Below are positions 46,903-62,986 of a stretch of DNA of 64,000 nucleotides, piece by piece. The translations under genes were made by a program, and so were the position numbers. The stretch spans positions 3,233,001-3,297,000 of the forward strand of contig NZ_CP092831.1 of NCBI RefSeq assembly GCF_022531965.1. The letters run 5' to 3'. Numbering within the stretch: position 1 is the stretch's first letter; the number at the start of each line of letters is the position of its first letter. The notes beneath the pieces were generated by a model that made no database searches, was not told where the DNA came from, and saw only the letters and a program-made list of their open reading frames with translations. Origin of the DNA: Paenibacillus peoriae (GTDB taxonomy: Bacteria; Bacillota; Bacilli; Paenibacillales; Paenibacillaceae).

Positions 46903-47322
46903 CCTCTTTCTCTCCTTCCTTACCACTTTTACTTTTTAAAACTTCTACGGCCTGTCGGATCACAGGCGGGATAGGAACGCCGAGTCTGCCACCATTCTCC
47001 AAAATGGACCGTAGCTCATTTTCCATATAAAAATAGGCGACCGCATCTCGGAATAGGTGCGAATCGCCTAAGACTCCATCAATTAGATGGGATACTGCTA
47101 CCATTGCAAAAATAAATACCTTTCGAGCTATACCGATAAGACCAATCTTGCTTTTTAAACCTGGTCCGGTACCCTTCTTACCTTCTACGGCAGCGGCAAA
47201 TAATCCGGTCACATAATCAATAATGACCAGGCAAGTAACACCCCCAATACTCCCGACCACCCACCATAAAAATACGTCACATCGCTGCTTCCTAAAGCAG
47301 TACAGAACTTAAAAACTCCCAC
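46880..47322 (-). pseudogene. Phage holin (Phage_holin_4 type), frameshifted
   Basis: A GTG at 47322 with AAGAAGG 8 bases upstream starts a frame containing VTYFYGGWSGVLGVLLA. The frame then fails, and the neighbouring frame carries on with LVIIDYVTGLFAAAVEGKKG and KSKIGLIGIARKVFIF to a stop at 46880. The shift is near 47227-47232. Together they make a normal 145-residue holin of the toxin-secretion/phage-lysis family. The end overlaps the start of the endolysin relic, the usual lysis-cassette order. Confidence 0.75.
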
Positions 47323-47352
47323 TTATCCAACCTTCTTCCCCCGTCTCTCCGT

Positions 47353-47573
47353 TCAGGAAACTTTTCCTGAGCTATCATCATTTGCTTTTTGATTCTTTTC
47401 CTCTTGGGCCTGTATCTCTGCTAATGCATTTCCTACCGCAATATCCAAACCTATAAGAATTTCTTTCCGGCGTGCTGGCTGTGAAGCAATTACAGCAAAA
47501 TAACCTCAGTCAATTCTTGAACCGATCTGGTTAGATCCAGTAGTATATCCAATGTGGATTTTATCTTTGCCAT
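47353..47573 (-). pseudogene. Small phage-associated gene, frameshifted
   Basis: An ATG at 47573 after GGAGGTGA opens MAKIKSTLDILLDLTRSVQELTE and then hits a stop. The shifted frame continues FAVIASQPARRKEILIGLDIAV to a stop at 47353. One base change near 47500 would join them into a protein of about 70 residues. I do not recognise the family. It is upstream of the holin relic on the same strand. Confidence 0.55.
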
Positions 47574-47810
47574 GTATTTCGTCACCTCCTCAAGACGCAA
47601 AATAAGCCCCTGAATTATCAGTGGCTTTTCATACTTGTATCTTAAATTAATTTGCTGCTATAACGCTACGAGTTTTAAAGGGAAATATTGTTCAGTGAAT
47701 ATAAATTTGTAGACGGACAATACGTCATTAAGCTAACGGACAGTTTAACTTGATTGGTGATATTATGCTACTCTATAAATAAGCAAATAATTTAATCAAG
47801 AGGTGTAATA

Positions 47811-48236
47811 ATGCGGTTTCATGAATTTTATATCGGACAAGTATTTAAAACCAAGTCTTTGAAATTAACTCAAGAGGATATTACCAGATTTGCAAGGGAG
47901 TTTGACCCGCAATATATGCATTTAGATGAAGAGAAAGCATTAAAAGGCAGGTTTAATGGAATTATCGCTTCAGGAATTCAAACATTAGCTGTTTCTTTTA
48001 AGCTTTGGGTTGAAACAGGGAGTTACGGTGATGAGGTTATTGCTGGAACTGCTATGAATAATATTAAATTTATTAAGCCAGTATATCCAGGCGACGAATT
48101 GTACACCATCGTTGAAGTGATTGGAGTAAAAGAGATGAGGAATGGAACAGGACTCGTTACTGTAATGCTGTCGACTTTCAACCACAAAGAGGAGCAAGTT
48201 TTTGAAGGCGATTTATCCGTTCTGGTTAAACAGTAA
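47811..48236 (+). CDS. MaoC-like hot-dog dehydratase
   Basis: A 141-residue protein with the MaoC/(R)-hydratase pattern: ITRFAREFDPQYMHLDEEKA holds the hydratase-type Asp and His, followed by ASGIQTLAVSF and PVYPGDELYTIVEV. Such enzymes hydrate enoyl-CoA or act on related thioesters. AGAGGTG precedes the ATG. It stands alone between the prophage relic and the degraded region, with its own terminator. The upstream 47580-47810 shows no other gene. Confidence 0.88.
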   Translation: MRFHEFYIGQVFKTKSLKLTQEDITRFAREFDPQYMHLDEEKALKGRFNGIIASGIQTLAVSFKLWVETGSYGDEVIAGTAMNNIKFIKPVYPGDELYTIVEVIGVKEMRNGTGLVTVMLSTFNHKEEQVFEGDLSVLVKQ

Positions 48237-48265
48237 AGTTTTATAAAATCAATTATTAAAGGTTT

Positions 48266-48305
48266 GAAGAGGCCCATGCATTCTAGCACGGACCTCTTCT
48301 CTTTA
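48266..48305 (+). terminator. Terminator of the MaoC gene
   Basis: GAAGAGG and CCTCTTC pair (48266-48272 with 48293-48299), followed by TCTTTATTT. Confidence 0.7.
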
Positions 48306-48876
48306 TTTATACATGGCTTGACTTGCGGCTTTATGTTCAGCCACACGTTGCAGTAATTTCTTCATTTGGCGACCTTTAAGTTGCCCTTCTACAACTGAAT
48401 TTCGCATAGATTCTACATCTTGAACCCGCACTTTACCCCATGATGAAAGCGATTGTACAGTGCGATAAATTGCTTTGCTGCCACTTTATTATGGGTCTCG
48501 ACTTGGAAACCAACGCTGTTCGTCGGGTGTTTGTAACAGACAATGACTTGGGCGATCTGCTTAGGATCTGTTGGTTTGTGTACAGACAAATTAGCGTTGG
48601 ATTGATGATTTAGCGTACCCAGTATTCCTCTTAGCAACTAATCTTCCGGAATTCGCATAACCTGAAGATGATGTTCACGAATACCACTTCCAATCCCACA
48701 CATATCATGGTAGTTGCAGAATCACGTACGATATCACCCATTTTGGATAACATATCTATATCTTCTGGTGTTCGACTAGCATTTTCGTTCAATGTAATAA
48801 TAATAAATTCATCTACTGCTTTTGTATTAGAACTGTACAAGCAATGCGATAGAACGAGAAGCATCATACAAACCAT
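48303..48876 (-). pseudogene. Degraded coding region, minus strand
   Basis: Two stretches look like decayed genes. One frame (48637 to about 48455) reads DPKQIAQVIVCYKHPTNSVGF and KQFIALYN, then the next frame continues SLSSWGKVRVQDVESM and QMKKLLQRVAEHKAASQ to a stop at 48303; a single base near 48451-48456 would join them. Upstream, 48876-48641 reads FIIITLNENASRTPEDIDML and DIVRDSATTMICVG, after which an alternative frame (GSGIREHHLQVMRIPED) runs to a stop. I do not recognise either product. The region ends just before the formate dehydrogenase leader. Confidence 0.45.
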
Positions 48877-48944
48877 AGAGGTAAAGCTGCTTCAAGAGGG
48901 GGCTAATCCATGTAAAATTTTGGTTCAGTGTAATGAATTTCACA

Positions 48945-49025
48945 TCTTTCCGGGCCAACCTGTTCTACCATAGAAGAGTGATACGCCGTGCTGGGCAGAC
49001 CACTTTGGTCGGGACGGTTACGTCT
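48945..49025 (+). promoter_or_regulatory. Probable molybdenum-cofactor riboswitch
   Basis: A compact fold lies upstream of a molybdoenzyme operon. AACC (48957-48960) pairs with GGTT (49016-49019) and encloses TTCTA-CCA-TAGAA (48963-48975). GATACGCCGT follows, with CCGT pairing to ACGG (49014-49017), and GACC pairs with GGTC (48998-49010). GGGCCAAC, GTGATACG and GGGCAGACC...GGTCGGGA resemble the conserved core of the Moco RNA motif, known to sit before molybdoenzyme and Moco genes. The call rests on memory of the motif and on context; a covariance search would settle it. Confidence 0.55.
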
Positions 49026-49103
49026 TGTTCTAAACTAGTTACACAGGCTGTCTGGCATGCGCGGCAAGTACGCCTTTATTTTGATTCGAAGCGGAGTGTC
49101 CAG

Positions 49104-49469
49104 ATGTTGAATACCGAATTGGAATACCGTGAGCGCATCAGGAAGTTGGCCGTATGTATTGTCAAACACTACCGGGGAAAAGGACCGGACAACGTCAAGG
49201 TTTCACTGGATTCGCCGCTCCGGATTACGGTAGAAATTCGAGGTACATTGTCTAATCTGTCCGAAATCCTCGTTCATGAAGGGGCTGAGGACAAGGTCAG
49301 AGAATATTGGGACGTCCTTCGTCCCTATCTGGAAAAGGAGTTTATGAACGAAGCCGAAAAAACACTCGGCAGTCCCTTCACTTATACTTGGGAGGTCTGC
49401 CCCTCCGTCCATGGAGACGGACACATTATCATTACTCTAGAACTACAACACATACACCGGTTGGATTAG
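49104..49469 (+). CDS. DUF2294 (MpsC-like) domain protein
   Basis: A 121-residue protein from the ATG at 49104, with GGAG 7 bases before it. The frame is open from 48933, but those codons lie in the structured leader. Key stretches are CIVKHYRGKGPDNVKVSLD, VEIRGTLSNLSEILVHEGAEDKV and TYTWEVCPSVHGDGHIIITLEL, the pattern of DUF2294, now named for MpsC of a membrane-potential system. These domains are often near formate dehydrogenase genes in Bacillaceae, as here. The biochemical role in this setting is unknown. A terminator-like hairpin separates it from fdhF. Confidence 0.75.
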   Translation: MLNTELEYRERIRKLAVCIVKHYRGKGPDNVKVSLDSPLRITVEIRGTLSNLSEILVHEGAEDKVREYWDVLRPYLEKEFMNEAEKTLGSPFTYTWEVCPSVHGDGHIIITLELQHIHRLD

Positions 49470-49502
49470 CGGGAAGGAGCCTTGTCTCCTCGCTCGCGGA
49501 TA

Positions 49503-49553
49503 AGCCAGTACAGGATGCAGCGTAAAGCGGCATTTTTGTATTGGCTTTTTTTA
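49503..49553 (+). terminator. Terminator or attenuator before fdhF
   Basis: AGCCAGTACA (49503-49512) pairs with TGTATTGGCT (49537-49546, one mismatch) and TTTTTTT follows. It lies only 45 bases before the fdhF start, so it either ends the DUF2294 transcript or limits read-through into fdhF. Confidence 0.65.
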
Positions 49554-49597
49554 TGTTTCGAGTTTCATCTATTTCATATAAAAGAGGTGCTGCACTT

Positions 49598-51760
49598 ATG
49601 GCAGACAAGGTATTGACCGTATGTCCCTACTGCGGGAGCGGTTGTCAGCTTCATTTGCTGGTGGAAAAAGGACAGGTAATTGGCGCAGAGCCGGCTGGTG
49701 GTCGTACGAATGAAGGAACGTTGTGTCTAAAAGGACACTACGGATGGGATTTTCTGAATGACCCGCAAATTCTGACTGCACGCTTGCGCAAGCCCATGAT
49801 TCGCAAAAATGGAGTTATGGAGGAAGTGGAGTGGAAGGAAGCCATTCAATATACTGCCGAACGGCTGTCAGCAATTAAGGAAAAATACGGACCCGACTCC
49901 ATTATGGGAACGGGCTCCGCACGTGGTCCGGGAAATGAGGCCAATTATGTCATGCAAAAGTTCATGCGGGCGGTCATTGGCACGAACAATATTGACCATT
50001 GCGCTCGTGTATGCCATGGCCCTTCTGTGGCAGGTTTGACTTACTCGCTCGGAGATGGAGCTATGTCCAACTCTATTCCTGAAATTGAACACTCTGATCT
50101 CATTTTCGTATTTGGATATAATGCACCCGAAACACATCCGATCGTCGCAAGACGCATTGTAGCTGCCAAGCAAAGAGGCGCCAAAATTATTGTATGCGAT
50201 CCGCGCATGACCGAAACAGCTCGTATCTCGAATATGTGGCTACCCTTAAAGGGCGGTTCGAACATGGCTTTGGTGAACGCTTTTGGTCATGTACTTGTGC
50301 ATGAAGGACTGTACGACAAACGATATGTGGAAGCAAACACAGAAGGCTTTGCCGAATATGTAGACAGCATTAAAAAATATACTCCCGAATATGCGGAAGG
50401 CATTACGGGGGTCAAGGCGGCCGATATCCGGGCGGCTATGAGGGAATATGCAAAGGCCCCTACCGCTACCATTTTGTACGGAATGGGCGTATGCCAATTT
50501 TCACAGGCCGTTGACGTAGTAAAGGGGCTCGCTTCCCTTGCACTGTTGACCGGAAATCTGGGCAAGCCGAATGTGGGTATCGGACCAGTACGGGGACAAA
50601 ACAATGTACAGGGTTCCTGTGACATGGGTGCTTTACCGAATGTGTATCCTGGCTATCAGGATGTAACAGACACCACGGTTCGCAAAAAGTTTGAAAAAGC
50701 ATGGGGTGTTGAGCTGCCGCGTAAAAAAGGATATCCACTTACGGAGGTACCACACCTCATCCTGAAGGAGAACAAGCTGAAAGCTTATTACATTTTCGGC
50801 GAAGACCCTGTACAAAGTGATCCGAACGCCGCCGAGTTGCGTGAAGCCCTAGACCAATTGGAATTTGTCGTGGTCCAGGATATTTTCATGAACAAAACAG
50901 CGCTGCATGCCGATGTCATCCTCCCTTCTACTGCTTGGGGCGAGCATGACGGTGTATATTCTTCGGCAGATCGGGGCTTTCAGCGCATCCGAAAGGCCGT
51001 CGAGCCACAGGGTGATGTAAAGCCAGACTGGGCTATTATTAGCGAGGTTGCTACCGCCATGGGCTACCCTATGTCCTATGCAAACACAGAGGAAATTTGG
51101 GATGAAATGCGTAGCCTCTGCCCATTATTCTCCGGTGCCAGCTACCAAAAAATGGAGCAGCAAGGCGGCGTGCAATGGCCCTGCCCTACTGAGGATCATC
51201 CAGGTACACCGTATTTGTATAAAGGAAATCAATTTTCGACACCTAGTGGCAAAGGCAGATTATTCGCCTGCGAATGGCGTCCGCCACAAGAACAACCGGA
51301 TGCAAAATACCCGCTTGTCTTGTCTACAGTCCGTGAGGTAGGCCACTACTCCGTTCGTACCATGACTGGCAATTGCCGTGCGCTGCGCCAATTGTCTGAT
51401 GAGCCTGGCTTTATTCAGATTAGCCCGGAAGACGGAGCAGATCTGAATATTCTGGATGGTGAAATTGTTGCCATATCCTCCCGCCGGGGACGCATCATGG
51501 CTCGGGCACAAATCAGTGACCGTGTGCAACAAGGTGCGACCTACATGACCTATCACTGGTGGGTTGGAGCATGCAACGAGCTGACCGCTGATTTTCTCGA
51601 TCCGGTATCCAAAACCCCGGAATTAAAATACTGTGCCATCCGCCTGGAACGAATCGCCGACCAAGCTCAGGCCGAACGTGATGTACATGAATCGTACCAA
51701 CAGATTCGCAAACAGATGAACGTCCAGGAAGCTGTTTTGGCTGATAAGGTGACAAGATGA
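49598..51760 (+). CDS. fdhF: Molybdopterin formate dehydrogenase (FdhF, Cys form)
   Basis: A 720-residue enzyme from the ATG at 49598, with AAGAGGTG 8 bases before it. It is strongly similar along its length to E. coli formate dehydrogenase H. The single [4Fe-4S] site is CPYCGSGCQ with CLKG. The active-site motif is ARVCHGPSVAGL near residue 137, with Cys where E. coli has selenocysteine, so no SECIS element is needed. VREVGHYSVRTMTGN and TYHWWVGACNEL belong to the C-terminal cofactor domain. It oxidises formate or reduces CO2. It leads an operon with two ferredoxin-like subunits and an [FeFe] hydrogenase. Confidence 0.95.
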   Translation: MADKVLTVCPYCGSGCQLHLLVEKGQVIGAEPAGGRTNEGTLCLKGHYGWDFLNDPQILTARLRKPMIRKNGVMEEVEWKEAIQYTAERLSAIKEKYGPDSIMGTGSARGPGNEANYVMQKFMRAVIGTNNIDHCARVCHGPSVAGLTYSLGDGAMSNSIPEIEHSDLIFVFGYNAPETHPIVARRIVAAKQRGAKIIVCDPRMTETARISNMWLPLKGGSNMALVNAFGHVLVHEGLYDKRYVEANTEGFAEYVDSIKKYTPEYAEGITGVKAADIRAAMREYAKAPTATILYGMGVCQFSQAVDVVKGLASLALLTGNLGKPNVGIGPVRGQNNVQGSCDMGALPNVYPGYQDVTDTTVRKKFEKAWGVELPRKKGYPLTEVPHLILKENKLKAYYIFGEDPVQSDPNAAELREALDQLEFVVVQDIFMNKTALHADVILPSTAWGEHDGVYSSADRGFQRIRKAVEPQGDVKPDWAIISEVATAMGYPMSYANTEEIWDEMRSLCPLFSGASYQKMEQQGGVQWPCPTEDHPGTPYLYKGNQFSTPSGKGRLFACEWRPPQEQPDAKYPLVLSTVREVGHYSVRTMTGNCRALRQLSDEPGFIQISPEDGADLNILDGEIVAISSRRGRIMARAQISDRVQQGATYMTYHWWVGACNELTADFLDPVSKTPELKYCAIRLERIADQAQAERDVHESYQQIRKQMNVQEAVLADKVTR

Positions 51761-52407
51761 GCGGCACAGGGAATATGATGCACCGTCCGACTGATACCCG
51801 GTCAGCTTCGATGAGTAGAATGGGAGCAGCCGGTAGAACAAGCGCTGTTGCTTCTTCTTTTGTAGTCGCAGACGCCGGGCAGTGCATCGGCTGCAAAGCC
51901 TGTGAACTGGCGTGCTTCGCCGTTCACAGTCAGGCTAACGGTATAGGAGCTTCGGTCGGAACCGTCAGCGTTCCTGTCGTACCCAAGGTGTATGTTGTTC
52001 GTACAGGGGATACGTATGTGCCGGTGCAATGCCGGCATTGCGAAAATGCCCCCTGCGCACATGCCTGTCCGGTGCAGGCCATTCGTCAGGAGGACGGAGT
52101 CGTCATGATAGATGAGGATCGATGTATCGGCTGTACTTCCTGTGTTTTGGCCTGTCCCTTCGGGGCAATTGAGGTGTCTCCGGTCTACCGGGCCGGACAC
52201 CTTGTGACGCAGTCCGGCCTGACTCACCGGGCAAATCGAGTGGCCCTTCCCCGCACCGCGGCAAGCAAATGCGATCTGTGCGCGGAAACAGAGAACGGAC
52301 AGCCTGCATGTGTAGATGCCTGCCCGAATCATGTCCTACGGCTGGCCAAGGGTATATCCGACTCGCCTCCAGAGCCTCGGCGGGAAGTCTTTTTCCCACG
52401 CCTGTAA
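51757..52407 (+). CDS. Four-cluster ferredoxin subunit (HycB/HydN-like)
   Basis: A 216-residue iron-sulfur protein; the ATG overlaps the fdhF stop (ATGA). Four Cys clusters are seen: CIGCKACELAC, CRHCENAPCAHAC, CIGCTSCVLAC and CDLC with CVDAC, for four [4Fe-4S] centres. HycB-type proteins carry electrons between FdhF and a hydrogenase. The first 35 residues are an Arg/Ser-rich extension not seen in most family members; a start further in (MSRMGAAG) is possible. A similar protein is encoded at 54009. Confidence 0.92.
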   Translation: MSGTGNMMHRPTDTRSASMSRMGAAGRTSAVASSFVVADAGQCIGCKACELACFAVHSQANGIGASVGTVSVPVVPKVYVVRTGDTYVPVQCRHCENAPCAHACPVQAIRQEDGVVMIDEDRCIGCTSCVLACPFGAIEVSPVYRAGHLVTQSGLTHRANRVALPRTAASKCDLCAETENGQPACVDACPNHVLRLAKGISDSPPEPRREVFFPRL

Positions 52408-52439
52408 GGTCAAAATCAGCCGCAGAAAGGTAGAAAAAC

Positions 52440-53945
52440 ATGTCAACCACTATAGACAAGATCTCTTCACCTCCTTGTATGAAGACGACTGATTACACAG
52501 ACCCTGTCATTCATATTGACCCGACGCTCTGCACGGGATGCAGACGCTGTGCTGAGGTTTGTCCAGTAGATGCCATAGAGGGACTGCCTGGAGAACCGCA
52601 AACCATTAATGCAGACCGATGTGTTATTTGCGGTCAATGTGTACAAATATGCAGCGTATACGCATCTGACTGGGCAGGTTCATCTCCACAGGAAAGCGCC
52701 GCTAGACGGCTGGAGCGTATACAAGAACGCGATATGCCTGCCGACATCAGAGAGCCGCTATTCGCTGCCTATTATAGCTACAACTTGAATAAGGTAAGCG
52801 ATATGATGACCAAACCTGGACAGTTTCGGATCGTCCAATGTGCTCCGGCCATTCGTGTTTCACTCGCGGAGGAATTCGGTATGCCGTTTGGCACCTTGAC
52901 GCCTGGGAAAATGGCTGCTGCTTTGCGCCGCCTTGGTTTCGACCGGGTATATGACACCAACTTTGGAGCTGACGTGACCATCATGGAGGAAGGCACGGAA
53001 TTGATTCGTCGCGTGACCGAAGGCGGTCCCTTGCCTATGTTCACATCCTGCTGTCCAGCATGGGTCCGATTTGCCGAGATCGAATATCCCGATCTGCTAG
53101 ACCATCTATCCAGCTGCAAATCTCCGATGCAAATGTTAGGAGCGCTTATCAAATCTTATGGCGCACAACTGGACGAAGTGGAACCTGCGAATATATACAG
53201 CGTTGCCATCATGCCATGTACTTGTAAACAATTTGAATGTGATCGTCCCGAAATGGAATCTGACGGTTACCGTGATGTAGATGAGGTACTGACCACGCGT
53301 GAACTTGCATACTGGATCAAGCAGAGCGGAATTGATTTTGCAAACCTGCCTGATGAAGAATTCGATTCACCGTTAGGGCAATATTCCGGTGCAGGCTCCA
53401 TTTTTGGAGTCACTGGAGGAGTCATGGAAGCTGCCATCCGTACAGGTTACGAGCTGCTGACGAATGAAAAACTGCCGAAGCTCCAACTCGATTTTGTACG
53501 TGGTGAGGAAGGCATTCGAGTAGCTGAGGTTCAGGTAGGCAAGCTACAGCTCAAGGTAGCGGTCGTCGCCGGGCTACAGCATGCCTATCAGCTACTGGAT
53601 CGTGTCCAGGCGGGCGAATGTGATTATCATTTTATTGAGGTGATGGGCTGCCCTGCCGGATGTATCAGTGGAGGGGGACAACCCAAGATCATGTTAGAAA
53701 AGCAACGAATTGAAGCTTATCGGGCACGTAAATCCTCCATTTATGGACATGATGCTGCACGCCAGGTACGAAAATCGCATGAGAACCCTCACATCATTAA
53801 ACTTTATGATGAATTTCTAGGTGAGCCGCTGGGTCATGTGTCGCATCATCTTCTGCACACGACCTTCCAACAACGGGGGCCCGGCAAGCAAAGCCGCAGT
53901 AGCACTATTTCTATCAAAGGGGATACGGATTACTCCATTCATTAA
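52440..53945 (+). CDS. hydA: [FeFe] hydrogenase, catalytic subunit
   Basis: A 501-residue hydrogenase. An N-terminal two-cluster ferredoxin domain has CTGCRRCAEVCPVD and CVICGQCVQIC. The H-cluster domain has all three signatures: L1 FTSCCPAW (about residue 201), L2 MPCTCKQFE (about 257) and L3 EVMGCPAGCISGGGQP (about 400). The Cys residues bind the [4Fe-4S] part of the H-cluster, and the second Cys of L1 is the proton-transfer Cys. The size is that of the M2-type enzymes used in HDCR. AAAGGTAG precedes the ATG. It interconverts protons and H2. Confidence 0.95.
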   Translation: MSTTIDKISSPPCMKTTDYTDPVIHIDPTLCTGCRRCAEVCPVDAIEGLPGEPQTINADRCVICGQCVQICSVYASDWAGSSPQESAARRLERIQERDMPADIREPLFAAYYSYNLNKVSDMMTKPGQFRIVQCAPAIRVSLAEEFGMPFGTLTPGKMAAALRRLGFDRVYDTNFGADVTIMEEGTELIRRVTEGGPLPMFTSCCPAWVRFAEIEYPDLLDHLSSCKSPMQMLGALIKSYGAQLDEVEPANIYSVAIMPCTCKQFECDRPEMESDGYRDVDEVLTTRELAYWIKQSGIDFANLPDEEFDSPLGQYSGAGSIFGVTGGVMEAAIRTGYELLTNEKLPKLQLDFVRGEEGIRVAEVQVGKLQLKVAVVAGLQHAYQLLDRVQAGECDYHFIEVMGCPAGCISGGGQPKIMLEKQRIEAYRARKSSIYGHDAARQVRKSHENPHIIKLYDEFLGEPLGHVSHHLLHTTFQQRGPGKQSRSSTISIKGDTDYSIH

Positions 53946-54008
53946 TACGTTAAGTTTTTTATGCTGTATACATTATATTTGTCGTTAGTTAGAGAGGAGT
54001 CGAATTGT

Positions 54009-54599
54009 ATGAACCGTTTTGTTTTAGCTGATCCCGACCAGTGTATCGGATGTCGTACCTGTGAAATCGCATGTGTCATCGCACATTCAGCGGAGAACCC
54101 TTTTATCTCACCAGATGATGAGTTTCATTTTCACCCTCGTCTGAAGGTTATTAAATCATTTGGAGTCACTGCACCCGTTCAGTGTCGTCACTGTGAGGAT
54201 GCCCCATGCGCTAACGCTTGTCCGAACGGCTCCATTACGAACGCAGATGGCTGCATTCTCATTAACAGTGAAAGCTGCATTGGCTGTAAAACCTGCATGA
54301 TCGCCTGCCCTTACGGCGCGATTACCATGGTACCCGAGTATCGAAACGGGCAGCCTGTCGTTCAAGACGGACTGTACACCAATATGTCAGGCCGTTTGCA
54401 ACCCAAAGAACGCATGATTGCCAGCAAATGTGATTTGTGCGAAGGTGTGGACGGCGGACCGGCCTGCATTGGTAAATGTCCAACACAAGCCCTCAAGCTG
54501 GTCGAGCCAGATCTGGTTCATGCCCGGGTTGAGGAAAAACGCGCTGCAAGTGCACGTCAGCTGCTGCATATGACACGCATTCCGGCAACAGGTCTATGA
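54009..54599 (+). CDS. Second four-cluster ferredoxin subunit (HycB-like)
   Basis: A 196-residue protein from the ATG at 54009, with GAGAGGAG 9 bases before it; the frame is open from 53961 without a start signal. Clusters are CIGCRTCEIAC, CRHCEDAPCANAC, CIGCKTCMIAC and CDLC with CIGKC. It is a paralogue of the 51757 protein without the N-terminal extension. The C-terminus is a charged helix-like tail (RVEEKRAASARQLLHM). In HDCR two different HycB subunits link FdhF and HydA and can build filaments; whether this tail does so is inference. The stop overlaps the next gene (ATGA). Confidence 0.92.
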   Translation: MNRFVLADPDQCIGCRTCEIACVIAHSAENPFISPDDEFHFHPRLKVIKSFGVTAPVQCRHCEDAPCANACPNGSITNADGCILINSESCIGCKTCMIACPYGAITMVPEYRNGQPVVQDGLYTNMSGRLQPKERMIASKCDLCEGVDGGPACIGKCPTQALKLVEPDLVHARVEEKRAASARQLLHMTRIPATGL

Positions 54600-56044
54600 C
54601 TGAAGGTTTCCCTCTACCTACAAATACGCGAACCGAGCGGGATGCGTTAGGAGAGATGGAAATTCCCGCAGACGCCTTTTACGGTATTCACACCACACGC
54701 GCGATGAACAATTTTGCGGTCAGTGGCAGGCCTGTGAACCAAAACCTGATCCACGCTCTTGTGTTGGTAAAAAAAGTAGCCGCTCAAGTGAATGGTGAGC
54801 AGAAACGGCTTCCTGTCCAACGGGCCTCTGCCATTGTATATGCTTGTGATGAAATACTCGCCGGGAGACACCAACATATGTTTACCGTGGATGCTATGCA
54901 AGGCGGCGCAGGCACCAGTACCCATATGAATGTAAATGAGGTCATTGCTAATTTGGCCATCGTACAGCTAGGAGGCAGACCAGGGCAGTATGAAATTGTA
55001 CATCCGCTGGATGATGTGAACTGCTGTCAGTCTACGAATGATGTCTATCCCACAGCGCTACGAATTGCAGCGATACGGCTGCTTCGGCCTTTATGTGACA
55101 CAATGTCTTCGTTACAGGATGCTTTACAACACAAAGAAACAGAATATGCCGACCTACTCAAGCTAGGCCGCACTCAGCTAATAGATGCCCTGCCCATGAT
55201 GGCCGGGCAGGGCTTTGGTGCCTATGCAAAGGCTATAGCGCGCGACCGCTGGCGTCTCTATAAGGCCGAAGAGCGGCTGCGGGAAATCCCTATTGGAGGC
55301 ACGGCGATTGGCACAGGTATGAACGCGCCCCGCGCTTACAGCTATCGGATGGTCGAAAAACTGGCGGATGAGACCGGCTTTGGACTGAGTCGCAGCGACC
55401 ACCCGATGGATCCGATTCAAAATATGGATGTCTTTGTGGAGGTGTCCGGTCTACTCAAAGCAGCCGCCGTGAATCTGTACAAAATATCTGGCGATTTTCG
55501 CCTACTGGCCTCTGGTCCTTTCGGTGGTATTGGCGAATACACGCTGCCTCCAGTTCAGGCCGGATCCTCTATTATGCCTGGCAAGGTCAATCCGGTAATA
55601 GCTGAAATGGCAGGACTAACAGCCATGCGTGTGATAGCCGAAGATGCGGCTATCACTATGGCCGCTGCCTCGGGTCAGTTGGAGCTAAACGCATTCCTGC
55701 CGCTGATTGCCGAATCGTTGCTGGAATCGCTACATATTCTGAACAGAGCGGTTCGACTATTCGAAGAACGATGTGTGCGTGGCCTGATCGTGCGTGAAGA
55801 ACGCTGTATTACAAATCTACGTAACTCAGCCGTGATGGCTTCTGCGCTGGTCGCGGAGCTTGGCTATGATGAGGCTGCCTCCATTGCATCGACGGCCATT
55901 GTGCAAGGTCGCACACCAGAGGATATTGCAGAAGATCGCGGCCTACTGACCCGTTCGCGGATTGACCAATTATGCCATCCCTATACAGTAACCAAGCCCG
56001 GAATTCCGGGGCAGGAAGAAGGAACTCACCATGGGAATGAATGA
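54596..56044 (+). CDS. Aspartase/fumarase-superfamily lyase, aspartate ammonia-lyase-like
   Basis: A 482-residue lyase. The family signature is GSSIMPGKVNP near residue 325, with QSTNDVYPTALR and GAGTSTHMNVNEV further up; these hold the catalytic Ser and substrate ligands. It overlaps the upstream hycB-like gene by 4 bases and hydF by 14, so it is firmly inside the hydrogenase operon. Aspartase would release ammonia from aspartate. Ammonia is the source of the bridging amine in the H-cluster dithiolate, so a maturation role is an attractive inference. Fumarase or another lyase activity is not excluded. Confidence 0.85.
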   Translation: MTEGFPLPTNTRTERDALGEMEIPADAFYGIHTTRAMNNFAVSGRPVNQNLIHALVLVKKVAAQVNGEQKRLPVQRASAIVYACDEILAGRHQHMFTVDAMQGGAGTSTHMNVNEVIANLAIVQLGGRPGQYEIVHPLDDVNCCQSTNDVYPTALRIAAIRLLRPLCDTMSSLQDALQHKETEYADLLKLGRTQLIDALPMMAGQGFGAYAKAIARDRWRLYKAEERLREIPIGGTAIGTGMNAPRAYSYRMVEKLADETGFGLSRSDHPMDPIQNMDVFVEVSGLLKAAAVNLYKISGDFRLLASGPFGGIGEYTLPPVQAGSSIMPGKVNPVIAEMAGLTAMRVIAEDAAITMAAASGQLELNAFLPLIAESLLESLHILNRAVRLFEERCVRGLIVREERCITNLRNSAVMASALVAELGYDEAASIASTAIVQGRTPEDIAEDRGLLTRSRIDQLCHPYTVTKPGIPGQEEGTHHGNE

Positions 56045-57284
56045 TACCCCTCGTAGCAACCGACCACATATCGTCCTGCTTGGTCGCCGTAACGCAGGCA
56101 AATCCAGCATTCTGAACACCCTGACTGGTCAGCCCGTCGCTGTGGTATCTCCTGTAGGAGGAACGACCACGGACCCCGTTTTCAAACCGATGGAGCTGCT
56201 CCCAGCGGGTCCCATTGTTTTGGTGGATACCGCCGGACTGGACGATGAGGGTGAGATCGGAGAGCTGCGCCGCAACAAAACGCTAGAAATACTTAATAGT
56301 ACAGACTTGGCTCTTCTCGTTATCGACGCCACCGTTGGAGTCGGATTATTCGAGCATGAGCTACTCGAAAAGCTCCGTATCAAAAAGATTCCTGTTATTG
56401 GGGTATTGAATAAGATAGATACCCTTACAGAATCAGATAAAACGGCTACAAAACTGGCAACTGAACTGGATCTCACCTTGATTCCTTTCAGTGCATCTTT
56501 GCTCCGGGGAGACACGGAACTGAAAAAGGCTATCACGAATACACTCCCCCAAAACGAGGATCGTTTTCGTATCGTCGGTGACCTGTTGTCACCCGGCGAT
56601 GTTGTTGTGCTGGTCGTTCCCATTGACAAAGCTGCACCAAAAGGCCGATTGATCCTGCCACAACAGCAAACAATCCGCGATACACTAGAGAGTGATGCCA
56701 TCGCCGTAGTGACCAAAGAACATGAACTACGATTGACACTGGAGAGATTGGGACGCAAGCCTCGCTTGGTCATTACCGATTCACAGGTTTTTATGAAAGT
56801 AGCGGCTGACACGCCCAAAGATGTGCCTCTCACCTCTTTTTCCATCCTGTTTGCCCGTCATAAAGGCGATCTGGACGAACTGGTACGAGGTGCAAGAGCC
56901 ATTGATCGCCTCAAAGATGGAGACCGTGTACTTATTGCCGAAGCCTGCACTCACCAATGCCAATCTGACGATATTGGTCGAGTGAAAATTCCCCGCTGGC
57001 TCCGCCAAACGATAGGCAAACGTCTCATCATCGAGCATGCATCCGGCTCCAGCTTCCCTGATGATCTGAGCGAATATGCACTGGTTATTCATTGCGGTGC
57101 ATGCATGCTCAATCGGCGTACGATGCTTCATCGAATGTCGGAAACGAAAGCTGCCGGCGTGCCGATTGTGAACTATGGTGTTTTCATCGCTTATGTACAG
57201 GGGGTCTTTCCCCGTGCTATTGAATGCTTCCCATCTGCTATGCTGGCATGGGAGCAAGCTGTAGAGGCCGGCAGTTATTCCTAA
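56031..57284 (+). CDS. hydF: [FeFe] hydrogenase maturation GTPase HydF
   Basis: A 417-residue protein. The GTPase domain has G1 GRRNAGKSS, G2 GTTTDP, G3 DTAGLDD and G4 NKIDT. The C-terminal part has the cluster ligands in the C-X-H...H-C-X2-C pattern (ACTHQC near residue 305, IHCGAC near 348). HydF is the scaffold on which the diiron subcluster is completed before transfer to HydA. AAGAAGG lies 8 bases before the ATG. It is the last gene of the plus-strand operon. Confidence 0.95.
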   Translation: MGMNDTPRSNRPHIVLLGRRNAGKSSILNTLTGQPVAVVSPVGGTTTDPVFKPMELLPAGPIVLVDTAGLDDEGEIGELRRNKTLEILNSTDLALLVIDATVGVGLFEHELLEKLRIKKIPVIGVLNKIDTLTESDKTATKLATELDLTLIPFSASLLRGDTELKKAITNTLPQNEDRFRIVGDLLSPGDVVVLVVPIDKAAPKGRLILPQQQTIRDTLESDAIAVVTKEHELRLTLERLGRKPRLVITDSQVFMKVAADTPKDVPLTSFSILFARHKGDLDELVRGARAIDRLKDGDRVLIAEACTHQCQSDDIGRVKIPRWLRQTIGKRLIIEHASGSSFPDDLSEYALVIHCGACMLNRRTMLHRMSETKAAGVPIVNYGVFIAYVQGVFPRAIECFPSAMLAWEQAVEAGSYS

Positions 57285-57324
57285 AAGTCCTCATCTCGGT
57301 ATTCATATTTTTTTCCAGACACAC

Positions 57325-57365
57325 AAAAGCAGTCGCGCTGATTTCAACGCGACTGCTTTTTATTT
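57325..57365. terminator. Bidirectional terminator between hydF and hydG
   Basis: AAAAGCAGTCGCG (57325-57337) and CGCGACTGCTTTT (57348-57360) form a perfect 13-bp stem; T-runs follow on both strands. Confidence 0.92.
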
Positions 57366-57428
57366 TCAAGTTCATTATAAATCATGAGATTTCATAGCGT
57401 GAAATGATACTACGAATAATATAAATTG

Positions 57429-58841
57429 CTAAAAATACAAATCGCGTTCGCCTGCTTCCAGTCGTTCAAGTCTGTCAAGCGTCAAACGGCGCGTCGATTC
57501 ACGTGGTATACGCTCCAGATTTTCTCGCAGAGCGGCAGCTCCCAGTTCACGTGCCTCCTCATCCCCATAATCCAGCAGATATTCTTGGAAGGTCAGCAGC
57601 GAATTCGGCTGGCATACATTATGAATTTGTCCTGATTTGGCAAGCTCCATGAAACGATCTCCAGTTCGCCCCTCACGGTAGCAAGCTGTGCAGTAGCTCG
57701 GCATATATCCGCCACGGCACAGACTTTTAATAATTTCCGATGGTGAGCGATGATCCCCCACCTCAAATTGAGGCTTATCATCAGTTTCCTGTTTTGCATA
57801 TGCCCCTACGCCTGTAGCTGAACCTGCACTAATCTGCGACACGCCTAGACCAATGACGCGGTCCCTATATTCCGGCTCCTCGCGCGTGGACAGGATCATT
57901 CCAGCATAAGGGACAGCCAGTCGAAGAACGGATACAATTTTCATAAAATCCTCATCGTTGACCAGGTACGGATATCGCTCCAGATCTACATTTTCAGCCG
58001 GACGCAATCGTGGAACTGAAACCGTATGAGGGCCACAGCCAAAGGCTTCTTCCAAGTGCTCGGCATGTTTCAGCATCGCTACGGTCTCATAGCGAAAATC
58101 ATACAGACCGTACAACACACCGATCCCCACATCATCTATACCCGCACGCATGGCTCTGTCCATTGCCGTAGTGTGCCAATCAAAGTCCCGCTTTGGTCCC
58201 TGCAGGTGGAATTTACGATAGCTTTCACGATGATACGTTTCCTGAAATAAAATATACGTTCCAATGCCCACCTCTGCCAGCTTCCGATAGTCCTCTTCGG
58301 TTGTGGATGCAATATTCACATTGATCCGCCGAATGCTGCCGTTATCCACCTTGACCTCATAGATCTGGCGCAGACAATCGACGATATAGTCAATGGGACA
58401 ATGAACTGGGTCTTCTCCCGCTTCCAGCACGAGTCGCTTGTGTCCCAGTTCTTGAAGCACTCTAACCTCCTCCACCAATTCCTCCGGTGTCAGACGGCTA
58501 CGAGTAAAGCTGTCATTGGTATGTTTATAACCACAATATTCGCAGTTATTCACGCAGTGGTTGCTTACATATAAAGGGGCGAACAACACAATCCGGTTGC
58601 CATAAATTTGCTCTTTGACTGCCCTCGAAGATTTGAACATCTCTTCCAATAATTCAGGATCATCCACATGTAAAAGAGCCGCCGCTTCACTCGCACTCAG
58701 TCCCCGGCAGGCTCTCCCCTTTTCTAAAATTTCTAAAATACGGTGTCGATCTGTTGCCTCTTGTTTCCCCTGCTCCACTGCTGCCATAATCTCTGCTTCA
58801 TTAATAAAATCCGCCGATACTTTCTCCCGTACTCCACTCAC
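57429..58841 (-). CDS. hydG: [FeFe] hydrogenase maturase HydG (radical SAM tyrosine lyase)
   Basis: A 470-residue radical SAM enzyme that splits tyrosine to make the CO and cyanide ligands of the H-cluster. The radical SAM motif is CVNNCEYC near residue 98 and the second, dangler-type cluster has CTAC with a Cys 22 residues on (HNVC). RINVNIAS and GIGVLYGL are typical. It lies 61 bases after hydE on the same strand, and converges on hydF. The start at 58841 lies in a purine-rich stretch. Confidence 0.95.
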   Translation of the reverse strand: MSGVREKVSADFINEAEIMAAVEQGKQEATDRHRILEILEKGRACRGLSASEAAALLHVDDPELLEEMFKSSRAVKEQIYGNRIVLFAPLYVSNHCVNNCEYCGYKHTNDSFTRSRLTPEELVEEVRVLQELGHKRLVLEAGEDPVHCPIDYIVDCLRQIYEVKVDNGSIRRINVNIASTTEEDYRKLAEVGIGTYILFQETYHRESYRKFHLQGPKRDFDWHTTAMDRAMRAGIDDVGIGVLYGLYDFRYETVAMLKHAEHLEEAFGCGPHTVSVPRLRPAENVDLERYPYLVNDEDFMKIVSVLRLAVPYAGMILSTREEPEYRDRVIGLGVSQISAGSATGVGAYAKQETDDKPQFEVGDHRSPSEIIKSLCRGGYMPSYCTACYREGRTGDRFMELAKSGQIHNVCQPNSLLTFQEYLLDYGDEEARELGAAALRENLERIPRESTRRLTLDRLERLEAGERDLYF

Positions 58842-58902
58842 GTATACCCATCTCCTTATTTATGGTTACTGCAATGTTTCCGTCATAGCCTCACAAAGTT
58901 TC

Positions 58903-59910
58903 CTATCTCATAAGTTGTCGTTGCACCCTCAAACTATCACCGCGCCCCATATCGACTTCAAATCCCGCTCCACGAATCCGCAGTTCCAGGCAATGACGAC
59001 ATTGGGCAGACTCATCTCCCAAACATATTTTATTCTCATAAATCGCATACTTAGGCCTCACCGCCAGTGGCGACAAATTGGGCATCACCACATTTGCCCC
59101 TGCCTGAAGCGCCTTCTCCCTGCCTTGGGGATGAATCGTTCCCATTGCCGTGGACGCCGGAATAAGTGCATCTGGAACAACCAGTCGGGATAACGAAATA
59201 ATATCGAGAGCTTTTTCCATGCTCCCCTGACTGGCATCCCGAAGCGGCGTGTTGCTATGCGGTAAAAAAGGACCAATCCCGATCATATCTGGTGACAGGC
59301 TATGCAGATAGACCAAATCGTCTGCTAATTCACTATTTGTTTGTCCTGGTAACCCCACCATACATCCGGCCCCGATCTGAAAGCCGATTCGTTGCAAAGC
59401 CAGCAGACGGCTGCGCCTGCTTTCCATCGTCATCGTCGGATGCAGCTTGGCGTACAAACGGGGGGAAGCTGTCTCATGCCGCAGCAAAAAACGGTCCGCG
59501 CCCGCCTCGTATAATTGCTCATAAGTTTCATCATCTCGTTCACCGATGGACAGTGTGACTGCCACATCCGCGAAACGGCTTTTAATTTCTCGAATCAATT
59601 TCGTCAGCCGGGCTGCTGTAAACCAGTAATCTTCCCCACTTTGCAGCACAAAGGTCCGATAGCCGAGTTCATAGCCCTCCGCACAACAGGCCAGAATTTC
59701 TTCCGGCTGCAAACGGTAACGATCTGCCTGTTTATTCGAAGCACGCAGCCCACAGTACATGCAGTCCTGACGACATATACTGGAGAATTCAATTAATCCC
59801 CGTAAAAAAACACCTTTGCCATAGCGCTCCAATTTGGTGCGAGCTGCCAGGTGCCTCAGTTGAGCCCGTAGCGTCGGCTCATCATCCAAACGTGTCAGCA
59901 ACTCCATCAT
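58903..59910 (-). CDS. hydE: [FeFe] hydrogenase maturase HydE (radical SAM)
   Basis: A 335-residue radical SAM enzyme, motif CRQDCMYCGLR near residue 50, then QSGEDYWF, GCMVGLPGQTN and GIGPFLPHSNTPL. HydE acts on the HydG-made iron complex to help build the diiron site. The first ATG of the frame is at 59910, but 19 further codons upstream (LLLRLADGKEWTHTE) look like the conserved HydE N-terminus. That stretch begins at GTC 59967 right after a TGA, with AAGAAGG nearby but no standard start codon in frame. The true start is therefore unclear. Confidence 0.92.
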   Translation of the reverse strand: MMELLTRLDDEPTLRAQLRHLAARTKLERYGKGVFLRGLIEFSSICRQDCMYCGLRASNKQADRYRLQPEEILACCAEGYELGYRTFVLQSGEDYWFTAARLTKLIREIKSRFADVAVTLSIGERDDETYEQLYEAGADRFLLRHETASPRLYAKLHPTMTMESRRSRLLALQRIGFQIGAGCMVGLPGQTNSELADDLVYLHSLSPDMIGIGPFLPHSNTPLRDASQGSMEKALDIISLSRLVVPDALIPASTAMGTIHPQGREKALQAGANVVMPNLSPLAVRPKYAIYENKICLGDESAQCRHCLELRIRGAGFEVDMGRGDSLRVQRQLMR

Positions 59911-60140
59911 TTCCGTATGCGTCCATTCCTTGCCGTCAGCCAGACGCAGTAATAATTCGTCCGTGACTCATCCCTTCTTCCCTCGTCCATCCGGACTTCG
60001 CATCATCAGCGGCTTGTACCGTACATGTATTATTCTAGCAATATCGAAGAAGATGTAACGTGACTAGTTTCACAAAAAATCCCATTTTATAAAAACCTTC
60101 TTCAACTTCCGCCTCAAAAAATACACATTTAGCTCAACAC

Positions 60141-60180
60141 ACAAAAAAGCTGTCTCTTCCTCTAATGGAAGAAACAGCCC
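60141..60180 (-). terminator. Intrinsic terminator of the alkaline phosphatase gene
   Basis: GGGCTGTTTCTTCC pairs with GGAAGAGACAGC around ATTAGA on the minus strand, followed by TTTTTTGTGTG. Confidence 0.88.
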
Positions 60181-60199
60181 TTGTCGATGATTCTGCATA

Positions 60200-61816
60200 T
60201 TACTGAATCAAATCAATTGCCTGCTGGGGTACAAAATAATCAACACCGTTAAATACAACTACACCGTTGAGCGTGGTATTTTTACCATTCAGCATAGCAA
60301 TATTTTTGTATACCGGAAGCTCCAGCTTGTTACTGCCTTTGGTCACTGTAATGACTTTCGTATCCGCAGTAAACTTGGCTCCTTTAGCTTCAAAAGCGGC
60401 TTTTGCAGGAACAAAAAGCTGCTTGCTGACTGTATCCAAGTCCAGTCCAAGTACACGTGTCATATACTTATTTACATCCGTATTGTCGATTACACCGGAT
60501 GGACGGTCTCCGTTCGGCGCGTACGTGTACAACACGACATCGCCTCCTGTATGTCCGCCTGTAGTCCAGCCAATATTCGCACGTTTGCTAATGATCGGTC
60601 CGACAGCATAGTTCATGCTGCCTTCTTTGGCATCTTTAATGGTTTTCACTTCTTCGTCTGTCAAATCGGTGATGCCAAAATACGTGGAAAGCACCTCTTT
60701 AATATTGCTGCGATCTGCATTCAGCTTGGCTTCCAAGCCTTCACCCGTCAGCTTCGCTTTTTTCAGCGGGTCTATAAAAGCAGCTAAAGGCGTTTTGTCA
60801 TAATTGCTAGTTGTATCGCTGCTACCAATCGTCAATCCACCGTTTCCGTGGTCTGTCACTGCTACGACGACAGTATTTTGGTTTTGTTTGGCGTAATCCA
60901 CAGCCACTTTCACCGCATCGTCAAATGAAAGCACGTCACTAATAATTCCGGTTGGATCATTTGCATGGGCGGCCCAATCCACTTTACTGCCTTCTACCAT
61001 TAAGAAGAAGCCTTTATCGTTTTTGGACAACACATCAATGGCTTTCGATGTCATTTCCGCCAGACTAGGTTCCTTGGATGCATCGCGATCCAGGTTATAC
61101 GCAAGGGCTTCGGGAGAAAAGCTGCCCCAGAGCTTGCTGGAGGTCGATTTTTTCAACCCTTCAGGTGTCGTGACAAAGTCATAACCCTGGTCTTTAATTT
61201 GGGCTACCAAATCTTGGCCATCTTTACGCCCTGCTGCCTCCAAAAACTTGCCGCCTCCACCTAACACTACGTCAACCCCGTTGTAGGCTTGCTGCATGCT
61301 GAGTGCATCATAATTTTTACGATCAGGATAATGTGCGGTAAAATCAGCTGGTGTCGCATGCATAATCTCGGAAGTCGCAATAATTCCGGTCGATTTTCCT
61401 GCCAGCTTGGAAGCCTCAAGAATGGAAGCTACAGGCTTTTTGGCGTCACCCCCTGCAATGGGTTGTTGTCCAGGCATTGTCGCCTCATCAGGAAGGACAC
61501 CCACATACCCAGTATGAGATTTATGTCCTGTGGCAAAAGCAGTACCCGCTGGAGCAGAATCGGCAATTGGAGCATCCGCAGAATGCGTACGCACCATGCC
61601 GCTTGCCATGCTGTCTAACGTTAAGGAGGATCCTTTGTACCATCTAGCCAGTGCAGTGGCGTCATTAGCCATACCGTCTGGAATCAAAATAATTACGTTT
61701 TTAATCGACCTGTCCTTTTCGACTGCCATCGCCGTCCCACCGCTTACTGCTAGCATCATCGTCGCTACGAGTGCAGCCACCGATTTTTTCGTATGTAGCC
61801 CCCAACCTTTTAGCAT
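60200..61816 (-). CDS. Secreted alkaline phosphatase
   Basis: A 538-residue exported phosphomonoesterase. The signal peptide ends near AMAVEKD. Metal and active-site elements are ILIPDGM (Asp48), HSADAPIADSAPAGTAFATG with the nucleophilic Ser87, VEGSKVDWAAH, TDHGNGGL and TGGHTGGDV. The C-terminal 70 residues form a stalk-like domain (VITVTKGSNKLELPVYKN, FVPQQAIDLI) like that of copper-amine-oxidase N-terminal repeats. It releases phosphate from organic esters outside the cell. GGGAGG precedes the ATG. A LysR gene is divergent. Confidence 0.93.
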   Translation of the reverse strand: MLKGWGLHTKKSVAALVATMMLAVSGGTAMAVEKDRSIKNVIILIPDGMANDATALARWYKGSSLTLDSMASGMVRTHSADAPIADSAPAGTAFATGHKSHTGYVGVLPDEATMPGQQPIAGGDAKKPVASILEASKLAGKSTGIIATSEIMHATPADFTAHYPDRKNYDALSMQQAYNGVDVVLGGGGKFLEAAGRKDGQDLVAQIKDQGYDFVTTPEGLKKSTSSKLWGSFSPEALAYNLDRDASKEPSLAEMTSKAIDVLSKNDKGFFLMVEGSKVDWAAHANDPTGIISDVLSFDDAVKVAVDYAKQNQNTVVVAVTDHGNGGLTIGSSDTTSNYDKTPLAAFIDPLKKAKLTGEGLEAKLNADRSNIKEVLSTYFGITDLTDEEVKTIKDAKEGSMNYAVGPIISKRANIGWTTGGHTGGDVVLYTYAPNGDRPSGVIDNTDVNKYMTRVLGLDLDTVSKQLFVPAKAAFEAKGAKFTADTKVITVTKGSNKLELPVYKNIAMLNGKNTTLNGVVVFNGVDYFVPQQAIDLIQ

Positions 61817-61899
61817 TCATTTTCCTCCCAGACCTTTTTTGTACAACCAGAACTAAGATTAATTATGTTTTATCAGGAGAATGTTAAAGGAATTCATTA

Positions 61900-61957
61900 T
61901 CTATATTAAAAGATGATATTTGTGACAAAACGCTTCATCTATATAATACTTGTGACA
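61900..61957 (-). promoter_or_regulatory. Promoter and direct repeats upstream of the phosphatase gene
   Basis: On the minus strand TTGTCA (61923-61928), a 17-base spacer and TATAGA (61900-61905) form a good promoter. On the plus strand TTGTGACA occurs at 61920-61927 and 61950-61957, 30 bases apart, as direct repeats overlapping and upstream of the -35. They are a candidate activator site, for PhoP or another regulator; they do not clearly match the TTHACA PhoP repeat. Confidence 0.5.
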
Positions 61958-62054
61958 CATGAGATTCGTCAGGACTGGGCATTTAATTTTATTATTGTAT
62001 AATCAGTCTATGATGTAATAGGAAAAGTTTATAAGATAAGGAGCATGAAATTCG

Positions 62055-62972
62055 ATGGAATTCAGACAGCTTCAGTACACCCTGCAAATTGCAGCGGAAA
62101 AAAACTTCTCACGCGCAGCAGAAAAACTGCATATTGCTCAGCCTTCTTTGAGCCAACAATTGTCCAAACTTGAAAAAGAACTTGGGGTACTTTTATTTCA
62201 ACGCAACACCAGCACGGTGGAATTAACACATGCAGGAGCAAGCTTTGTAGAAAAGGCAAAAAAAATAGTTGATGCAGTCGAGCAGCTCCGGCAGGAAATG
62301 GACGATATTTCTCAGCTGCGAAAAGGGAAGGTCGTCGTTGGCAGTATGCCTATCACAGGCTCCCATTTGCTGCCGCATGTGCTGCCTGTATTCAAGAGGG
62401 CTCATCCAGACATTGAAATCGTGTTAGTCGAAGATTCATCCATGAATCTGGAGAAAAAAACGGCAAGTGGCGATACAGATCTCAGCCTGCTCTCTCTTCC
62501 CTTAGTAGAACCTACACTTTCTTATGTACCCATCGGTGAAGAATGGATTGATCTCGCTGTTCCTCCGGGTCATCCCCTAGCCCTGCGTAAAAATGGTACC
62601 CAGCCGCTGCCAGTGCATATGGAAGAACTGAAAGACGAGCCTTTTGTCGTCCTGAAAAAAGGGCAAGGCTTTCGCAAGCTGACGATGGATCTATGTCATC
62701 AAGCAGGCTTTGAACCCAATGTGGTGTTTGAAAGCACTAATATGGAGACCCTTCAATCGCTCGTAGCGACAGGTATGGGCGTGACACTCGTCCCACGTTT
62801 TATCGCACGGGCCGCCAGTAGCGAGTTTGTTCCAGCATTGCTGCCACTCGCCGAACCTACTCCCAGCCGTACCCTGGCCATTGCTTACCGGAACGGACGT
62901 TATTTGTCTAAAGCTGCCGAAGCTTTTATTGATACCTTCCGAGAAACGGTCGAGCAACTTTCTCAAAAGTAG
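62055..62972 (+). CDS. LysR-family transcriptional regulator
   Basis: A 305-residue regulator. The helix-turn-helix reads NFSRAAEKLHIAQPSLSQQLSKLEKELG near residues 17-44, and the effector domain starts near 90 (GKVVVGSMP). PPGHPLAL, TNMETLQSLVATGMGVTLVP are typical of the CynR/CcpC-like group. AAGGAG lies 11 bases before the ATG; TATAAT at 61998-62003 is a likely -10. It is divergent from the phosphatase gene. The inducer is unknown. Confidence 0.92.
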   Translation: MEFRQLQYTLQIAAEKNFSRAAEKLHIAQPSLSQQLSKLEKELGVLLFQRNTSTVELTHAGASFVEKAKKIVDAVEQLRQEMDDISQLRKGKVVVGSMPITGSHLLPHVLPVFKRAHPDIEIVLVEDSSMNLEKKTASGDTDLSLLSLPLVEPTLSYVPIGEEWIDLAVPPGHPLALRKNGTQPLPVHMEELKDEPFVVLKKGQGFRKLTMDLCHQAGFEPNVVFESTNMETLQSLVATGMGVTLVPRFIARAASSEFVPALLPLAEPTPSRTLAIAYRNGRYLSKAAEAFIDTFRETVEQLSQK

Positions 62973-62986
62973 CCTCGAACGTGAAA

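Follow-up and report, generated by a model that had tools for sequence, protein, structure and literature searches.

A hydrogen-dependent CO2 reductase-type gene cluster in Paenibacillus peoriae: a probable soluble formate hydrogenlyase with a DUF2294 gene beside fdhF

A stretch of 64,000 nt from the genome of Paenibacillus peoriae (assembly GCF_022531965.1, contig NZ_CP092831.1, positions 3,233,001 to 3,297,000 of the forward strand), referred to as the window below, carries the genes of a formate dehydrogenase (FdhF), an [FeFe] hydrogenase (HydA), two HycB-like ferredoxin subunits and the H-cluster maturases HydE, HydF and HydG between its positions 49104 and 59967. Judged from gene content, gene order and kinship, the product of this locus is very probably a soluble FdhF-HycB-HydA-HycB complex belonging to the hydrogen-dependent CO2 reductase (HDCR) type, encoded along with its own H-cluster maturases; the complex would act mainly as a formate hydrogenlyase.

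Results

Gene content of the locus

The region 49104-59967 consists of two converging gene sets, one on the plus strand running from a DUF2294 gene to hydF and the other on the minus strand comprising hydE and hydG. Protein identities were obtained by scanning ten locus proteins with Pfam and NCBIfam profiles. The catalytic subunit gene fdhF (49598-51760, plus strand, ATG at 49598) scored 905 bits with TIGR01591, above its cut-off, and the product has Cys at the position of selenocysteine (Sec) 140 of Escherichia coli FDH-H, in agreement with the Cys form assigned in the original prediction. On the same strand, fdhF is followed by hycB-a (51757-52407), which encodes a four-[4Fe-4S] subunit of HycB4 type with an altered C-terminal tail, by hydA (52440-53945; TIGR02512, 457.8 bits against a cut-off of 405.95), the gene of an [FeFe] hydrogenase of HDCR HydA2 type, and by hycB-b (53961-54599), which encodes a second four-[4Fe-4S] subunit, of HycB3 type by its C-terminal tail, and which may actually start at an internal ATG near 54009. 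Alignment of HycB-a and HycB-b with HycB3 and HycB4 of Thermoanaerobacter kivui and with E. coli HycB showed 16 common Cys columns, as expected if both subunits carry four clusters each.

The frames of all genes named in the original prediction were open and closely packed, so the tight operon that had been proposed was confirmed, as was the clustering of fdhF and hydA with two hycB-type genes that marks the HDCR type. There were ATGA overlaps at fdhF/hycB-a and hycB-b/aspA, and aspA and hydF overlap too, which would be compatible with translational coupling. The maturase genes hydF (56031-57284, plus strand; TIGR03918, 561.2 bits, cut-off 325.55), encoding a GTPase, and hydG (57429-58841, minus strand; TIGR03955, 648.8 bits, cut-off 312.15) and hydE (58903-59910, minus strand; TIGR03956, 458.6 bits, cut-off 254.6), both encoding radical S-adenosylmethionine (SAM) enzymes, all passed the NCBIfam equivalog cut-offs within the same 11 kb. 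A subunit for NAD(P) or flavin, as in the formate-linked bifurcating hydrogenase of the Clostridium autoethanogenum type, was not found among the ten scanned proteins.

Two genes of the span had been left unnamed in the original prediction. One is an aspA-like gene (54596-56044, plus strand), whose product was placed in the aspartate ammonia-lyase subfamily by NF008909 (606.3 bits, cut-off 510). The other is an open reading frame (ORF) of the DUF2294/MpsC family (49104-49469, plus strand, 121 aa), which matched PF10057 with an E-value of 1.3e-4, slightly below the Pfam cut-off.

Kinship of the subunits

The best structural-database match of HydA was HydA2 of the T. kivui HDCR (7qv7_D) with 675.6 bits, compared with 416.8 bits for the next distinct hydrogenase, 387.6 bits for the bifurcating HydA1 of Acetobacterium woodii and 224.1 bits for the Thermotoga maritima enzyme. 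HydA relatives were taken from the best 80 among 233 confirmed stretches. Together with the window, T. kivui HydA2 and a Desulfovibrio periplasmic enzyme, around which a long-branch warning applies, the 81 copies in these 80 loci gave a tree of 84 rows; the bifurcating hydrogenases were compared by score only, outside the tree. In this tree, the window and T. kivui HydA2 shared a 35-row group (support 100/99), inside which the window belonged to a 19-row Paenibacillus group (support 99/95). These results place HydA with the HDCR HydA2 proteins and not with bifurcating or periplasmic enzymes; a grouping with bifurcating hydrogenases, named beforehand as the outcome that would speak against the prediction, was not indicated by the scores.

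HycB-a was closer to HycB4 of the T. kivui HDCR structure 7qv7 (195.4 bits; 53% identity over 165 columns) than to HycB3 (120.3 bits). For HycB-b the two scores were 161.8 bits with HycB4 and 148.4 bits with HycB3, and the HycB3 match reached residue 179 of 184. FdhF scored 1001.7 bits with E. coli FDH-H versus 734 bits with FdhF of the T. kivui HDCR.

Distribution and genome context

According to the neighbours of hydA, 32 loci (L004-L035) were of HDCR type: 18 from Paenibacillus, 2 from Desulfosporosinus, 10 from Clostridium, Tepidibacter or unclassified Bacillota, and 2 from deltaproteobacterial bins. HydA of this type was present in 17 of 75 Paenibacillus genomes. Both hydG and hydE were found in 15 of the 18 Paenibacillus loci, the contigs of the other three (L009, L016 and L019) ending earlier, and an aspA homologue was found in 16 of them, being absent from L011 and L012.

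Several local variations were observed in these relatives. In one Paenibacillus genome hydA was matched as two overlapping pieces (G025:C1:4323309-4324804), which points either to a natural pseudogene or to an error in sequencing. Clostridium magnum (L025) has two HydA copies in the HydA2 clade (1668-3011 and 10804-12006), one of them close to an FdhF of 46% identity whose codon at the Sec position is TGA. In two Paenibacillus loci (L013:11010-12050 and L017:11042-12274) an extra gene, apparently for a MoaA-like radical SAM protein, lies between hycB-b and aspA, where the window has none; in P. sinensis (L022:10563-11378) a transposase-like ORF lies between hydA and hycB-b.

The P. peoriae genome is a single contig of 5.84 Mb with one [FeFe] hydrogenase above the family cut-off. 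Of two further, weak matches, one fell within the 981-aa frame that encodes a second formate dehydrogenase. The [NiFe] large subunit (PF00374) gave 0 matches in the genome, and a membrane formate hydrogenlyase of the E. coli type is not indicated. CdhC/acetyl-CoA synthase (PF03598), the sole marker searched for CO dehydrogenase/acetyl-CoA synthase (CODH/ACS), also gave 0 matches in the genome; by this marker, an acetogenic HDCR in the Wood-Ljungdahl pathway is not indicated either. One pyruvate formate-lyase (PFL), one formyltetrahydrofolate synthetase (FTHFS) and one FdhD are encoded, the last ∼645 kb off, next to the second, longer formate dehydrogenase. This genome context fits fermentative formate disposal better than acetogenesis.

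The second formate dehydrogenase locus (G000:C1:3918500-3938400, L094) encodes a protein of ∼980 aa and a partner of 160 aa; fdhD lies nearby, as do a moaA-like gene and molybdate-transporter-like genes. The other PF10057 gene of the genome lies 8-11 kb from it.

The DUF2294 neighbour of fdhF

The DUF2294 gene was located directly upstream of fdhF in 25 of the 32 HDCR-type loci, and all aligned members (21 of 21) matched PF10057 with an E-value of 0.01 or better. Among the remaining seven, the contig of L009 is cut off and the HDCR fdhF of L025 itself is not covered; L024 and L030-L033 are without the gene. Across the 75 Paenibacillus genomes, the DUF2294 gene was found in exactly the 17 having HydA; in 16 of these it and hydA lie ∼3 kb apart, and in G018 they are on different contigs. 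Linkage in one block would account for this agreement of the two sets, whereas the persistence of the gene in Clostridium and Desulfosporosinus, where the protein retains 45-48% identity, is not explained by it. In 398 genomes of the phylum there were only two strong DUF2294 matches, both beside fdhF, one in the window and one apparently in Desulfosporosinus acididurans; as the latter corresponds to locus L020, it is not an independent case. The other seven matches were weak (21 to 28 bits, in six genomes), and no FdhF match was found in their ∼3 kb loci. A wider search returned 106 proteins; those of them listed by name came from Paenibacillus, from Clostridium, with one bin of C. perfringens, from Desulfosporosinus and from unclassified relatives.

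The predicted model of the DUF2294 protein is alpha/beta and showed no clear structural kin. MpsC, the namesake of the family, is dispensable in Staphylococcus aureus (PMC6689103). In the open-licence literature, DUF2294 was met only in work on a fungal secretome, and MpsC together with formate dehydrogenase only in work on nitride materials, which is a weak form of absence. The DUF2294 protein probably serves FdhF as a dedicated helper.

An association of the DUF2294 gene with the Cys form of FdhF was also considered. It was counted in 30 of the 32 loci, excluding L009 with its cut-off contig and L025, where only the 46% identical paralogue of fdhF is covered. The gene accompanied 23 of 23 Cys-type versus 2 of 7 Sec-type fdhF (Fisher p 1.5e-4 with relatives counted as independent, 0.14 after collapsing clades). 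On the HydA tree this amounted to one independent contrast on supported branches and three on all branches. With so few contrasts and the clade-collapsed p value, the association was rejected as a result and remains a lead.

C-terminal tails of the HycB subunits

In the T. kivui HDCR, the C-terminal helix of HycB4 helps to build filaments, and filament formation is reported to raise HDCR activity (PMC10413684, PMC13397495). The T. kivui HycB4 tail reads ..KKARNKE. None of the 19 Paenibacillus sequences of the HycB4-type subunit (those of the window and of 18 loci) had a [KR]N motif after the last cluster Cys, whereas 14 of 14 others did, and Pro occurred in this tail in 14 of 19 versus 2 of 14. 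The KR of the HycB3-type tail was present in 19 of 19 Paenibacillus sequences and in 15 of 15 others, which include the second L025 copy with a tail that is HycB4-like in look. Of the two tail features of T. kivui-type filaments, the HycB3-type one was thus found and the HycB4-type one was not. The altered HycB-a tail weakens the expectation of filaments, and the Paenibacillus complex is predicted to polymerise poorly or differently.

Four points weigh against a plain loss of the HycB4-type tail. The [KR]N motif was picked after the tails had been inspected. Under a looser pattern, 7 of the 18 HycB-a tails from Paenibacillus matched, as against 11 of 13 from elsewhere, so some Paenibacillus tails retain part of the clostridial one. 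HycB-b tails gain Pro too (10 of 19 Paenibacillus versus 1 of 15). Furthermore, since Paenibacillus forms one clade, the tail change represents one event or few. The tails vary among Paenibacillus groups, which suggests relaxed constraint.

Putative regulatory elements and other features of the window

An Fnr/CRP-like palindrome, TGTAATGAATTTCACA (48929-48944), lies 175 nt before the DUF2294 start, and another on the minus strand, TGTGAAACTAGTCACG (60059-60074), lies 164 nt before hydE. Each has one mismatch to TGTGAN6TCACA, which we take to be the Fnr consensus. Besides the window, all 6 polymyxa-group relatives whose flanks are available (L004-L008 and L010) had such palindromes at near-fixed spacing (175-181 nt for DUF2294 and 164 nt for hydE). 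The conservation test covered 22 of the 26 DUF2294-bearing sequences (the window and 25 loci), and 8 of 440 random 350-nt windows of the same sequences equalled the sites. The best palindromes upstream of DUF2294 in 15 other loci had 2 or 3 mismatches, and those upstream of hydE in 7 other loci had 2 to 4. The window holds three Fnr-like palindromes where chance would give a mean of 2.05, so it is the place and conservation of the two sites, and not their number, that speak for them. Because the relatives are close kin and the other loci show 2 to 4 mismatches, the sites are only suggestive; they suggest anaerobic co-induction of both operons in the P. polymyxa group.

A hairpin between the converging operons (57325-57360; –22.1 kcal/mol, z –6.48, 0 of 200 shuffles equally stable) is a probable terminator common to both. 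Rfam returned nothing at the gathering threshold in 47000-63000, and counts of promoter-like and terminator-like patterns were close to chance. Upstream of the operon, minus-strand ORFs of lysin-like and holin-like appearance (46006-47260) resemble a phage lysis remnant. Farther away (28001-30000), GC content rises to 57% inside a 1216-aa ORF that appears dynamin-like, in a region of otherwise ∼45%.

Discussion

In the mechanism proposed here, formate from PFL would be oxidised by FdhF at a Mo- or W-bis-pyranopterin guanine dinucleotide (bis-PGD) centre with a Cys ligand, and the electrons would pass from the [4Fe-4S] cluster of FdhF through the HycB clusters to HydA, which would reduce protons to H2. 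Since PFL supplies formate, the main direction would most likely be from formate to H2 and CO2, the reverse being chemically possible. HydE and HydG would make the parts of the H-cluster and HydF would assemble them, with the AspA-like enzyme probably giving ammonium for the dithiomethylamine bridge. The DUF2294 protein would probably assist FdhF, and the two Fnr-like sites may induce both operons together under anaerobic conditions.

The complex was read mainly as a formate hydrogenlyase because the genome has no [NiFe] match and no CdhC match and encodes a PFL, which also supports the fermentative role considered in the original prediction. Some findings weigh against this reading or parts of it. 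CdhC was the only CODH/ACS marker searched; the FTHFS makes partial use of formate as a C1 source possible; and a second formate dehydrogenase above the family cut-off is encoded elsewhere. The AspA-like protein stayed below the stricter aspA equivalog TIGR00839 (494.6 bits, cut-off 681.2). FdhF is nearer to E. coli FDH-H than to FdhF of the T. kivui HDCR, an objection tempered by A. woodii FdhF2, which is likewise FDH-H-like with 59% identity (PMC6288185).

The subunits are the same as those of HDCR, FTHFS is present, and the complex of Clostridium beijerinckii works in both directions at similar rates (PMC12905484). Like HDCR in acetogens, the complex of the window might thus serve chiefly to reduce CO2 with H2 and so provide formate for C1 metabolism. 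This is improbable, as CdhC had no match, formate is already supplied by PFL, and no other hydrogenase above any family cut-off was found in the genome. Even less likely is that FdhF and HydA are separate enzymes with a common ferredoxin pool, HycB-a, HydA and HycB-b forming a ferredoxin hydrogenase and FdhF being coupled elsewhere. Clostridial fdhF does lie 1.3-3.1 kb away from hycB-hydA-hycB, and the C. beijerinckii trimer remains stable and active when FdhF is missing (PMC12905484); but fdhF and hycB-a share an ATGA overlap in the window, the HycB subunits match HycB3 and HycB4 of HDCR, and tagged HydA of C. beijerinckii co-purifies FdhF (PMC12905484). The patchy spread of HydA in the genus (17 of 75 genomes) and the two-piece hydA of G025 could point to a silent or decaying import. 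Against this stand the open frames in the window, the order and sequence kept in polymyxa-group loci and the published H2 production of P. polymyxa (PMC6288185, PMC4583153), which make it very unlikely.

It is also conceivable, though doubtful, that the Paenibacillus complexes form a sub-kind of HDCR in their own right. This would be a formate hydrogenlyase that builds no filaments or is assembled differently, having lost the HycB4-type polymerisation helix, and that depends on a dedicated DUF2294 protein acting on FdhF. Such action would perhaps be cofactor insertion, stability or redox protection, and might be tied to Cys instead of Sec.

The reading as a formate hydrogenlyase is itself already known, since the same role has been stated for the genus: many Paenibacillus have putative HDCR clusters that could fill it (Schuchmann, Chowdhury and Mueller 2018, PMC6288185). 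These clusters share genus, HDCR type and proposed role with the window; the passages of that paper on them do not mention the DUF2294 neighbour, aspA or the altered HycB4-type tail. The same paper cites Grau and Wilson 1962 for H2 from formate in P. polymyxa extracts. For P. polymyxa ICGEB2008, H2 was detected and a formate hydrogenlyase, thought to use NADH, was inferred (PMC4583153).

The four-subunit CbFdh/Hyd complex of C. beijerinckii, a non-acetogen, was purified as a soluble, reversible assembly of >1.3 MDa that performs formate splitting and CO2 reduction, and its hydA has a hycB gene on either side (PMC12905484). In C. beijerinckii HUN142 (L029) hydA lies between two hycB genes as in the window, and identities to the window are 76% for FdhF and 61% for HydA. 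The CbFdh/Hyd genes differ in being spread over two predicted operons with formate dehydrogenase maturation genes (PMC12905484), and the HycB4-type tail of L029 retains EEKRIRNIRA, unlike that of the window. The T. kivui HDCR (7QV7) has the same four subunit types with matching sequences, but its FdhF is more distant, its HycB4-type tail motif is absent in the window and its context is acetogenic. E. coli formate hydrogenlyase shares the proposed function and has the FDH-H nearest to the window FdhF, but uses an [NiFe] instead of an [FeFe] hydrogenase. The bridge nitrogen of the H-cluster can come from ammonia-lyases, and aspA often adjoins hydF (PMC11736057), as the aspA-like gene of the window does; Paenibacillus is mentioned 0 times in the main text of that paper.

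The formate hydrogenlyase reading is therefore a confirmation with a full parts list, and the useful new part is comparative. The DUF2294 neighbour of fdhF and the altered HycB4-type tail are new and testable. With the former, a small protein gains FdhF as a candidate partner in organisms amenable to laboratory culture; with the latter, Paenibacillus may offer natural complexes that are without one of the two filament tails and retain the other.

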